DNA of 64,000 nt from Zingiber officinale (Eukaryota > Streptophyta > Magnoliopsida > Zingiberales > Zingiberaceae): contig NC_055992.1 in assembly GCF_018446385.1 (NCBI RefSeq), forward strand, positions 103,496,947 to 103,560,946. Reading direction: 5' to 3'. Made by a program: the position numbers and the translations under genes. Of the stretch, positions 42,324-46,711 are shown in pieces. The notes beneath the pieces were generated by a model. That model saw only the letters and a list, made by a program, of their open reading frames with translations. It searched no databases and was not told where the DNA came from. The stretch's first letter is position 1. Every line of letters starts with the position of its first letter.

Positions 42324-42851
42324 CACTAAAACAAAAACATTAAAAGACAACGGTTAAAAACCGTTGTCGTAGGCCCTTTAAAACCGTTGTAACTGGCAGT
42401 GCTGTTAAAAGTGGGGGCTACGACAACGGTTTAAAACTGTTGTCGTAGAATGAAACGACAACAGTTTTGCAACGGTTTAAAACCGTTGTCTTTGAATGAA
42501 AAGACAACGGTTTAAAACCGTTGTTGTTTAGAGCACTTTTAATAACGCTGCTATCAATTACAACAGTTTTTGGGGCTACGACAACGGTTTTTAACCGTTG
42601 TCTTTTAGGGTGATAGACAACAATAATAACAATTTTAAATCGTTGTCTTTTAAACTATTGTCTTTTAATACTAATATATCATATTTCAATATAAATATAT
42701 AATAAAAGCTTATAATCACAAAAGAAAGAATATTCCCCATATCAATGTAATTCAAAATGTTACTTATACAAGAATTATAATCATAAAAGAAGAACCATGT
42801 CTCATATTCAAATAAAATTTATCCCAATACAAATAAACAAATAAACTCCAT

Positions 42852-43234
42852 CTACAACTGCTTCCTGTGGGGCAACTCCCTGAACGTTTGTGGGCTCATT
42901 TGTGGACTCTCTTCCCTCAACGTGTCATTGAGTATGGCCAACTCCCTGAGCTGTTGCTTCTTATAGTAGTCCATTGACTCATCCTGCAAGATTTGGAGTT
43001 TGAATAGTGACTATGTTTCGATAATAACATTCGCGTCGACATCTTGTAGAACAATGAGGAGGATGCAACCTAGGTGAAAGTTTTTGTTGCCACAAGCTTC
43101 AGAAGATCTTCAAGGGTGGCAACAGCTTAGTTTAAGCGAGCATCAATTATGTCTGGTGTAAATTCTGCCTCCAATAGTATGTGCAGCGGTTCGTTTAAGT
43201 GTTCATATCCAGATTTATCCCATAAGCTTTCTTC
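42852..43234 (-). pseudogene. captured C-terminal fragment of a SPIN1/QKI-like KH protein
   Basis: Two exon remnants on the minus strand: 43234 to about 43093 ([14 protein letters not shown] segment, here [18 protein letters not shown]) and 42983-42852 ([18 protein letters not shown], ending in TAG). Plant SPIN1-like KH proteins end this way. A stop (TAA, probably from CAA) interrupts the first piece in ARLN*AVATLEDLL. The acceptor AACAG| before the first piece and the acceptor GCAG| at 42984 survive. Confidence 0.82.
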
Positions 43235-43828
43235 CTGTTCAAAAAAAGGAGAGAAAACTTGAGTATTAAGACAAGAAATAATGCACCTTAGCTTTTGAGT
43301 TGATAATAGCAATCCATTAATTAGGACATATTATAGGATGCTAATATCGAAAATTACATAAGTTCTAAAATGCACGGTTAACTTAATGTCGATGTAACTT
43401 GTACAAAGAACATCATACTCTAGCAGAAACAAGAGAAGAGAAACCCATATCACATTCAAAAACATGGATTATTTTACCTTCAAACATAAAGACAAAGATC
43501 TATTTTTTATGTAGGTAGGCCTTAAAAAGTTAATAGTGAGGATAATACATCAAGGTTTGGGAGATTGGAATATACTCATTTTTCATTAAGATAAATATTA
43601 CATGATATCCACATACCATTATAGAATCCTTCACTGAACCTCGACCTCATATATAAACCCTGCATTGAGTTGAAGCTTCAACTCTTTTTAAGGAGTTCCC
43701 ACGTGGTCCTAGTAAACAGCCAACAAAGTTGTACTGAAACGCATGAAACCAGCAGTTTAATACATGTTGAGAGATTAACTAGTTGAATTGATTTAGATAA
43801 TCTGTCGACAAAATCTTGCTAAAGAAAC

Positions 43829-44981
43829 CTGTCATCAGTTGCATTGCCTGCAGAACCTTGGTATCTGGAGTCACTGTGATTAATTTATTCTGGATATAGG
43901 AAAAGAATCGGCATCAGATTGGAAGCAAAATAACAAAATCTTGAAATAATACTTCTACTCAATTCAAAATTTTCAGACATTGTCTGTACAACTTGAGATT
44001 GAAATTTACCTCTTCAGTCATGATGTCACCAACTTTAGTTGACTTGGAAGATCTTCCCTGTACAATCATTTTCCAGAGATAATCTGAAGAAGAAGGAATC
44101 GTTAAGAACACAAGTAATGTGCACGGCAAGTATAATTGCATAAAAGAACCATTATCAAAACTGGTTCTTAGTTTTCAAAAAAGATATTGAACAGAGGTGA
44201 AGACCAAATTTATCTGCTAATCAACTGCTCTTGTAGGATGTTAAAATTGTCTTAAACTTATTTCCCTAATGTCTTGAAGAGGTGAAGAACAAATATGCTG
44301 CTTAGAGAGAACTGGCACACACATTGGACCATCACACAATTGATTTGCATCAAGTAAATGATTGTGTTTGAGACAATGTGATTATCAAAATGTCATGAAA
44401 ATAACTTTCAGGATAATTAGATAATTTTTAACTTAATTGAAATTTAAAACTTCACATTGGCGTACACTCAGTTGTAAAAAGATTGCTATAAAAATTGAAG
44501 CTACCGAAGAACATCTGAAAATCATCTACCCAGTTGAATCTACTGGAGCAGCCATAGAATTGAGAAATTTACCAACTAATTGGAAAATATCTTATGATTT
44601 CACATAAATGTTTAGCTTTATCCATGCACCCATGAGCACATTTAATACCATTTCACAACCAACAAAAACAAACATGGGCAACCAATTACCTCTCTCAGTA
44701 ACAATTCCAGCAATTGCCTTCTCTTCTCCGGGTCTCGCCACCACTAAAGCTCCAACATTGTGTTGTGTCATCTAGAAATAGTAGAGCATAAGCCATCAGT
44801 TAAAACTATTTAAAGCTGGATGGTAATCCCAAACAAGATTGACATAATGGCCATTTACAGATTTGATAGCATCATAAACAGTGTCATCAGTTGTACACCA
44901 CAACTAGGAACCATCAACATTCTTCCCCTTAGCTGCAAGAACATCCCGGATAGTCATGCTTTCAAAACCATGCTCTTCCAA
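43829..44981 (-). pseudogene. captured fragment of a CBSX3-like CBS-domain gene
   Basis: Four exon pieces on the minus strand: 44981-44859 (LEEHGFESMTIRDVLAAKGK), 44771-44690 (MTQHNVGALVVARPGEEKAI), 44083-44010 (KMIVQGRSSKSTKVGDIMTE) and 43889-43829 (NKLITVTPDTKVLQAMQLMT). Order, introns and text match the mitochondrial CBSX3 family as I know it. A TAG replaces the expected Trp codon in the GSWLWC segment. The first and last exons of the source gene are absent. Confidence 0.85.
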
Positions 44982-45118
44982 CTGTGTAGGTGAAACTGAC
45001 TCAAAACGTGAAAACACAGTAGGTAACAAAAGTAAGCTACTTAAATTAACGTTGAACTCATAGGGATCCAATCAATACAGCTTGAAATCCAGGAATTAGA
45101 AGAGAGAACCAAAATGAC

Positions 45119-45673
45119 TTAGGATGGCTTATATCTGCGTCCACATCCACTGTCATTGTTCTGACCTCCACTTGAGTTGCCACCATATTTTCCCCCATGT
45201 TGCGGTCTTGAGACAGGTGCTTCAGGCTGTTGCCTAAGATAAATGGAGAATGTATTGATGATTTAACAATCTTAGTTGCAAAACAAGACAAAAAAACATA
45301 TGGAAGACAAAAAAACAAAGAGCTTTTGTTACACCACGAGAATGTTTATCTGTTGAAACAATTGTTAGCTCACTTACAGCACATATCCAAGTCGTCCATC
45401 GGGTAAGACCATGGGCACCATTGTCATGCCAGTAGGGATCTGTCCCCTTCCATAAGCCATAGACTGCAAAGTAGGCGAAATGAGATATGCAAAACCCTCT
45501 GAACAGAAATATGAGAAACAAAAGGTAAGGCAAATAATGCAGTAAAACAATGAGCCTTTCGCATTTTCCTTAAAGAAGCATGTTGTACTTTATACCTGCT
45601 GAAACCTTGAAGCTAGAGCACCATAAGCACCTCCCAACACACCGTACCCCATTTGAGATAAAACTCCCAAGTA
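45119..45673 (-). pseudogene. captured C-terminal fragment of an hnRNP Q/LIF2-like gene
   Basis: Three exon pieces on the minus strand: 45673-45596 (QMGYGVLGGAYGALASRF), 45463-45378 (MVPMVLPDGRLGYVL) and 45233-45119 (QQPEAPVSRPQHGGKYGG, ending YKPS then TAA). The second and third join in frame across a clean GT-AG intron (CT|G). The VLPDGRLGYVLQQP text is characteristic of plant hnRNP Q-like RNA-binding proteins. The RRM domains are not included. Confidence 0.75.
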
Positions 45674-45729
45674 CTTGAAATTCAAAAACCAAGTTGACTA
45701 CTAGCAGCTAAGATTGTGGAATTACTAAC

Positions 45730-45953
45730 CGGGATCGCATTGTTGATAGAAGTCCTCGAAATCTGCACAGGCGAATAACCAGGAAACAACAGAAGGTCAA
45801 TGACGATAACATCGTTGAGAAAGGAAAAGAAGAAAGAAGCAGAGTGGAGTTACTGGTGGTGAGCGCCCTGATGATGGCGGCTCGCCGGCCCTTGATGTCG
45901 CGGAACACCTCCTCCACCAGGCGGGAGTTTTGGGCTGCCGATCCACGGTCCAT
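45730..45953 (-). pseudogene. captured N-terminal fragment of an ALFIN-like PHD-finger gene
   Basis: Exon 1 (45953-45854) starts with ATG and reads MDRGSAAQNSRLVEEVFRDI and on to GRRAAIIRALTT. It joins in frame across a GT-AG intron to 45762-45730 (NFEDFYQQCDP). This is the start of the ALFIN-like family (VEEVFRDFKGRRAG, DVEDFYQQCDP). The PHD finger itself is not present. It supplies a native start codon for any fused transcript. Confidence 0.85.
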
Positions 45954-46149
45954 CTCGGCGATCGAGGGGGCTCCTAATTGGTCACGGAGCTGAGAACGTA
46001 GCCAAGAGAGAGAAGGGTGTCAAGCTTCATGAGCGAGGGGCAACTCGATCAAAAAGGGAAAACCAGATCTTTCTTTCAGATCTGAGTTTTACCGCCATCC
46101 ATACCTAAAACCTCAGATCTACAAGAGGGAAAGAAGAAGGAGACTCACG

Positions 46150-46279
46150 AAGCTAGTCCTTGATGACGCCGGCAACGGAGTAGGGGAGGGGGTTGATCGA
46201 GGGAAGCAGATGGCGGCGGAAGGAGTCGCAGATTGTTGATGAAGTCCCCGAAGGGATCAAGGTTTGGTTTCAGCGCCAT
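46150..46279 (-). pseudogene. possible fifth captured 5' exon, unidentified
   Basis: The minus strand from ATG at 46279 reads MALKPNLDPFGDFINNL, and another frame nearby reads LPPSINPLPYSVAGVIK. It is GC-rich and gene-like next to the CACTA terminal repeats. I do not recognise the source with confidence. Confidence 0.4.
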
Positions 46280-46711
46280 GTCGCGCAGCCGTATGAGGAG
46301 AAAGATCGTATGAGGGGAGAGGTTTAGGGTTCGGGTAGGTTAAGGGGGGAAAATAGAGCGCCAAAAAATTTTCTGAGAGAGGGAAGCAAATCACTGCTAC
46401 AACAAAAACAACGAAGGAGAAAAACGGCGAAAGCATAAAGTCAAAGACAACGGTTTATTAAAACTGTTGTCTTTGACCCCTAAAAAAACGCTTAAAGACA
46501 ACAATTTTAGAAAACTGTTGTAAAAGGTGTTGTTGATTTTACAAAAAATCGCTCAACAACAACGGGTTTTACAAACTATTGTCTTTTATTTTTTTCAGGC
46601 GCTCAAAGACAACGGTTTTGTCAAAAACCGTTGTCTTTAACCAAATTAACAACAGTTTCTTTTAAAACCGTTGTCTTTATGGTGTTGTCTTTTAACAATT
46701 TTATTGTAGTG

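Follow-up and report, generated by a model that had tools for sequence, protein, structure and literature searches.

How DNA transposons take up host genes is an open question, and fusion of neighbouring elements and gap repair are two of the answers under debate. In soybean, the CACTA element Tgm-Express1 has been described to hold fragments of five host genes and to yield spliced chimeric transcripts (PMC1947982, sections covered). In animals, microhomology in Pack-TIR elements has a median of 2 bp, and plants were left open by the authors in the part of PMC8277862 consulted. Here we analysed a 64-kb stretch of the ginger (Zingiber officinale) genome (contig NC_055992.1, C7:103496947-103560946; hereafter the window), in which a Pack-CACTA element occupies positions 42324-46711 and carries its cargo on the minus strand. 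We consider it very probable that this element, with six host-gene pieces in sense orientation, was assembled stepwise. Genome searches were made in the 3.09-Gb assembly; sister copies found there represent stages, and the genomic source loci that match the cargo contain introns. Since stages and source loci occur in one assembly, individual captures can be followed at single-base resolution.

The element opens with CACTA at 42324 and closes with TAGTG at 46707-46711, and its 28-bp terminal inverted repeats (TIRs) are 82% identical. The other intact copies have the termini CACTACAA...TTGTAGTG. The flanking triplets, TAT at 42321-42323 and TGT at 46712-46714 (neither assigned a strand), differ by a single mismatch. 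When the flanks are rejoined on TGT, they read CFICKQSGHWKADCHRRNQ and the gag knuckle CFICKQSGHWKADCHRR is restored; because this gives an intact Copia gag zinc knuckle, the whole block was inserted as a single unit, and TAT on the left is a mutated copy of TGT. A first-pass annotation, made from the sequence alone, had proposed one Pack-CACTA element inside a 3-bp target duplication. The single element was borne out by the CACTA/TAGTG ends and by one set of boundaries common to many copies, while the duplication holds in that TGT restores the knuckle but not as a perfect repeat.

Subterminal repeats mark both arms: AAACCGTTGTC is matched with at most two mismatches at 32 places in the window, and 25 of these fall within the arms. 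The left arm with its terminus spans 42324-42690 (plus strand; inner limit placed by eye) and the right arm 46287-46711 (minus strand), of which 46287-46684 matches another locus with the same right arm, L038, at 92%. Together, the arms and the six pieces cover the element except for the 161 bp separating its left arm from the KH tail (42691-42851), to which no source was assigned, a 39-bp tail and short joins. No transposase was found inside the element, which has no long open reading frame (ORF) and on the whole of which no transposase profile was run. The element is a non-autonomous CACTA transposon inserted in a Copia gag gene. The host Copia retrotransposon (35292-52294, plus strand) has long terminal repeats (LTRs) at 35292-40436, including two insertions, and 49887-52294. 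It retains gag (Pfam 1.2e-23), integrase and reverse transcriptase domains. Between its two LTRs there are 42 differences in 2421 aligned columns; at a rate of 1.3e-8, as used in the ginger genome paper (PMC8342452, main text), this corresponds to about 0.68 million years, an upper bound for the CACTA insertion.

Read along the minus strand, the cargo consists of an amidase-like start, an RGP intron donor, and ALFIN, hnRNP Q/LIF2, CBSX3 and KH pieces, all in one orientation as had been annotated. Source loci were located for all six, at about 94-98% identity. The amidase-like first exon (46171-46289, minus strand, ATG at 46279) matches L037 (C20:26422800-26423500) at 95.8% over 119 bp; we tentatively assign this piece to an amidase-like gene, which we take to be AMI1-like. 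The start of an RGP/UDP-arabinopyranose mutase intron with its GTGAGT donor (46049-46158, minus strand) matches L039 (C4:128367000-128367600) at 95.6% over 113 bp, and the L039 exon adjoining the captured intron is RGP (Pfam 7.9e-46; PDB 8cid 3.1e-22). The ALFIN-like piece (45654-46038, minus strand) comprises 5'UTR, exon 1 with its ATG (45953-45854), an intron, exon 2 (45762-45730) and the start of intron 2. It is 98.4% identical over 385 bp to L036 (C6:128919500-128920300), which lies on the same contig as the ALFIN-LIKE 3 protein P0184; all 44 aligned residues agree with this AL3-like ginger protein, and the Alfin domain is detected (Pfam 1.9e-9). The hnRNP Q/LIF2 piece (45028-45659, minus strand) holds the last three exons (45658-45596, 45463-45378 and 45233-45119, with the native stop) and 3' flank. 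Its source, L019 (C15:108272300-108282000), is 98.3% identical over 632 bp and has ordered hnRNP Q exons for residues 4-467, one of which carries a TAG near its end, as do several copies. A Pfam search with the hnRNP Q piece gave no match, and 67 of 86 residues (78%) are identical to a ginger protein.

The CBSX3 piece (43789-45028, minus strand; Pfam CBS 1.1e-13, with X placed at stops) retains four exons (45029-44859, 44771-44690, 44083-44010 and 43889-43829), its 5' part having been lost in the window's form of the element. It matches L027 (C13:85980000-85989700), a full gene that runs on through its last exon, at 97.3% over 1240 bp. The KH piece (At1g09660/SPIN1/QKI-like; 42891-43787, minus strand) has three exons (43733-43617, 43234-43091 and 42983-42891) with their introns. 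Its match to L035 (C6:7551850-7553150) is 93.7% over 904 aligned columns and continuous across two introns; the domain was recovered with Pfam KH (1.6e-15, X placed at stops) and PDB quaking (1.1e-22). A KH intron donor that is GT in the source is GC in all 12 aligned copies. The last 39 nt (42852-42890, minus strand), which code for a short peptide and a stop, are a non-parental tail that does not come from the KH gene. Over the 12 mapped exons, nine GT and one GC donors and nine AG acceptors are present; six exon borders were moved by 1-2 nt by eye to fit the bases. The first-pass annotation had named four unrelated genes, and the ALFIN start, the LIF2 C-terminus, the four CBSX3 exons and the presence of at least seven splice sites were all confirmed, together with parent genes having matching introns. 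It had missed the RGP and amidase-like pieces at 46049-46289, so that at least six genes are represented, and its two KH exons with a native stop have to be corrected to three exons with a foreign end. Loci L030, L031 and L032 (75-87%) had been candidate sources and were displaced by L019, L027, L035 and L036 at 94-98%. A reading of the fifth piece as a single frameshifted protein was also rejected, as the source gene's frame is frame 0.

A query across LIF2-CBSX3 gave 52 matches, and further searches were combined with it; as scoring covered the best candidates, the locus counts are minima. At least 27 loci were found (counted by place, not all of them sequence-checked), in three related forms: at least 11 of the window's form, one of them split by an insertion, at least six with LIF2 and longer cargo, and at least 10 with ALFIN and CBSX3 but without LIF2. 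Target duplications could be compared at 11 loci, namely the window and the 10 of 20 retrieved loci with both ends found. They are identical at 10 of these (TGC, CGT, TTG, ATT, GAT, ATA three times, TCC and AAG; eight different triplets), the window being the exception. Among the remaining retrieved loci, L019 and L027 are source genes and not copies, L015 aligned over its whole length with its left end missed by the end search, and seven are truncated, interrupted or rearranged. L033 is flanked by AAG/AAA, and neither L034 nor L042 has a clean left end. The 28-bp left end has 413 exact matches in the genome against none for its reversed control, and divergence among eight aligned copies with the window's form is 1.5-2.9%. 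Cargo and outer ends have thus moved as one unit in several insertions, and the segments do not belong to separate elements, as their outer boundaries are shared by many copies.

The sister copies can be arranged in a series. The earliest stage found is L043 (C21:57900900-57906400), a complete 5,173-bp CACTA element with a perfect target site duplication (TSD) AAA. It carries KH, AGO and RGP pieces, and none of the sources of ALFIN, CBSX3, LIF2 or the amidase-like piece matched it. KH and AGO also occur in L040, whose right end lies outside the retrieved sequence. At the second stage ALFIN was swapped in and the amidase-like piece gained, as seen in L042, which has KH, AGO, ALFIN, a shorter RGP piece and the amidase-like piece, without CBSX3. 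L042 and L043 match over 3,247 bp and then diverge at ALFIN; the ALFIN stretch in L042 replaces about 1.2 kb of L043-type cargo, and of the RGP source DNA, 310 bp are kept in L043 and 108 bp in L042. The new stretch is 97.9% identical to the ALFIN source over the 525 bp compared. At the third stage the AGO stretch was exchanged for CBSX3: the forms without LIF2 (L029, L033 and L034) have about 1.7 kb of CBSX3 in its place. An 867-bp stretch of this form, later lost, is composed of CBSX3 source sequence (1-415, 96.9%) abutting sequence shared with L042 (415-867, 97.8%). At the fourth stage LIF2 was swapped in: in L025 this 0.87-kb stretch has given way to about 1.0 kb of LIF2, 3' flank included, and L020-L024 have the same LIF2 3' flank marker. 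A deletion of about 0.4 kb then produced the window's form, which at 45028 is shorter than L020-L025 by another 0.34-0.46 kb.

Mean substitutions to the source, taken by form, are 4.9-5.6% for KH (18 copies), 2.2-2.6% for ALFIN (16 copies), 2.0-2.3% for CBSX3 (17 copies) and 1.6-1.9% for LIF2 (13 copies). The order is that of the series, although the genes are not under equal constraint. For the RGP piece the value is 1.5-1.9% (112 bp, 16 copies). Addition of cargo at one side only was rejected, as LIF2, CBSX3 and ALFIN are internal replacements. L041 had been taken for a complete 1,974-bp KH-only element with TSD AGC, and this was discarded because its supposed end and triplet recur inside L040 and L042; it is a truncated or deleted copy. 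The AGO (PIWI) piece, of about 48 residues, occurs genome-wide in at least dozens of places, for example at C20:17042968 and C8:79166362. Many of these scattered pieces have one in-frame TAG, and often no KH is among the matches listed. They perhaps belong to a larger AGO-carrying transposon family, the parent branch of the KH-core family. An additional small exon was noticed in the AGO-KH elements L043 (3894-3959, oriented; residues 4-25 of protein P0004) and L040.

We hypothesise that each replacement goes back to a break or gap inside the element that was refilled by copying an unrelated gene, through gap repair or template switching at a fork, and that the refilled products were amplified by the CACTA transposase of other elements. 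Either process predicts replacement without element ends at the joins, whereas fusion of neighbouring CACTA elements, with the outer ends of two insertions used together, predicts added DNA between element remnants. For the Pack-TYPE elements known from Arabidopsis, rice and maize, fusion is the model that has been proposed (Gisby and Catoni 2022, PMC8903248, as far as covered), and it could account for the arms first joining the oldest cargo. Positions 46397-46409, within the right arm, do hold a terminus-like motif, CTACAACAAAAAC, which nine of 12 aligned copies have without mismatch, but it sits in a longer match to L038, and an equally good motif score was obtained in 20 of 21,246 sampled windows. 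An internal CACTA end at 46392 was accordingly dropped as proof of two fused elements, the same stretch being part of the longer L038 match. From KH to ALFIN, a scan of the window's joins found no other CACTA-end match (up to three mismatches). In the CBSX3 and LIF2 captures a single host-gene stretch took the place of older cargo, an outcome that favours gap repair and is not predicted by fusion; the ALFIN capture looks the same, compared less fully. The joins themselves have 0-3 shared nucleotides, with short fillers at two joins and one nearby 8-nt shared word, ACACATGC. We regard fusion as a rather improbable origin of the cargo.

Same-sense, multi-gene cargo is typical of maize Helitrons, and a nested Helitron or a retrogene might have imported the cargo together. 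However, none of the eight window matches to a Helitron-like 3' end lies inside the element, which shows neither a hairpin with a CTRR 3' end nor the lack of a TSD that mark Helitrons. The retained introns mean that the pieces are not retrocopies, and what sets the staged sisters apart is single gene stretches and not one block. Import by either route is thus most unlikely.

Several points weigh against stepwise assembly by gap repair. The microhomology at the joins is short and may be due to chance. The L042 stage is represented by a single locus, whose left end is degenerate and which lacks a clean TSD; of its new stretch, about 1.05 kb long, the comparison with the ALFIN source covered only 525 bp. 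The candidate for a KH-only first stage was lost once the end of L041 proved false. The amidase-like piece, whose Pfam Amidase match (E 0.095) is below the cut-off, falls out of the series order at 4.3-6.1% (119 bp, 15 copies), and since it and the RGP piece are only about 110 bp long, their divergences date nothing. With regard to expression, chimeric transcription is predicted from gene annotation, and the contig listed for the annotated protein P0001 has 99,747,443 nt as against 99,732,720 nt for C19, despite identical exons.

Six annotated ginger proteins (P0001, P0004, P0002 and P0121-P0123) end in versions of the non-parental tail. In a KH tree, these six and the window fall on one side of a branch (support 100/100, or 92/85 with the tail removed). 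P0001 (271 aa; Alfin 6.2e-9, CBS 3.1e-13) is encoded in L033 (C19:68177800-68183000) exon for exon, all identical, with an acceptor within KH exon 2 in use. In P0004, whose AGO part matches AGO10 (PDB, 6.1e-26), residues 4-87 and 171-259 are identical in L043, AGO and KH parts included, and the exon pair between residues 87 and 171 has a single gapped match there. By their gene models, L033 and L043 thus carry annotated chimeric genes, ALFIN-CBSX3-KH and AGO-KH. P0123 (150 aa) has a membrane-transport-like start joined to the KH tail; the Pfam Mem_trans match (E 0.021) is below the cut-off, and no PDB relative was found for this start. The annotated genes for P0001 and P0004 are transposon chimeras, and by the shared tail P0002 and P0121-P0123 are transposon chimeras or carriers of the family tail. 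Such transposon-derived annotated genes call for caution in gene-family surveys.

Some copies may be transcribed and spliced to chimeric mRNAs, a step of which we are less sure, and public annotation predicts such a transcript for the sister copy L033. The first-pass annotation had considered a spliced chimeric transcript from the window itself to be possible. The window copy cannot encode the chimeric ORF because of three internal stops, a CBSX3 TAG near 44907 and a KH TGA near 43651 and TAA near 43126, and its end is not native. The CBSX3 stop is common to L009, L010, L012, L013 and L015; one KH stop is present in all 12 aligned copies, and the other in eight of eight copies of the window's form and none of four others. 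The window copy is probably a decayed passenger. Intact P0001 and P0004 genes in L033 and L043, together with pN/pS values below one among copies (0.49-0.92; 58 synonymous and 134 nonsynonymous variants), would fit functional chimeric proteins under selection in sister copies. Yet 14 of the variants are stops, and transitions make up 151 of the 192, which lowers pN/pS without selection; dN/dS against the sources is 0.34-1.12, with the source branch mixed in. Copy variation gives no clear sign of selection and, with one KH stop in every aligned copy and three stops in the window copy, we think functional products unlikely.

It is conceivable, though we would put it forward only tentatively, that the KH-core family is a running gene-assembly line, in which repeated, sense-only gap repair replaces cargo, intermediates are amplified and expressed chimeric genes (ALFIN-CBSX3-KH and AGO-KH) are among the products. 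If this is true, sense-only capture, at six of six pieces in the window and seven of seven with AGO (chance 0.03 and 0.016, respectively), would point to capture linked to transcription or to removal of antisense cargo.

Elsewhere in the window, the 5' LTR of the host Copia is interrupted by insertions at 35970-36793, containing a GC-rich repeat array (36253-36463), and 37737-39637. Tandem arrays were observed at 7807-9270 (repeats in an 11-12-bp register), 31757-32486 (146-bp units) and 32773-32990 (36-37-bp units). A hAT transposase C-terminal dimerisation domain is found at 54764-55144 (Pfam 2.0e-11), and an exon of an ACT-domain protein at 57359-57982 on the minus strand (Pfam ACT 1.1e-16) is likely to belong to a host gene.

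The kind of element is already known, from Pack-CACTA elements and Tgm-Express1, and the ginger family and its stage series are without a description that we could find. The literature search, which left most subscription papers and supplements outside, found no paper on either, in keeping with the first-pass annotation as far as the ginger element itself is concerned, and the main text of the ginger genome paper (PMC8342452) makes no mention of CACTA or gene capture. Soybean offers a comparable case: in the sections of PMC1947982 covered, Tgm-Express1 is likewise non-autonomous, belongs to the CACTA elements, has a comparable size (5.7 kb) and holds both exon and intron pieces from five unrelated genes, with splice sites that are used in chimeric transcripts. 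It differs in species and genes and was studied as one insertion in one gene, whereas the ginger family is described here from sequence; no staged sisters or mapped replacements are described in those sections. The animal Pack-TIRs attributed to gap filling or FoSTeST (PMC8277862, in part) share with the plant element from ginger the replacement of internal DNA by host DNA, short microhomology and amplification in multicopy cases. In Arabidopsis, rice and maize, Pack-CACTA and Pack-TYPE elements (PMC8903248 and PMC13317346, in the parts covered) resemble the ginger element in CACTA ends, host-gene cargo, multiple copies and nested acquisition. The Pack-PIF and Pack-Mariner elements worked through in section 9 of PMC8903248 hold one or two pieces of 58-280 bp, whereas the ginger element holds six of about 110-1240 bp, and in it new cargo displaces old.

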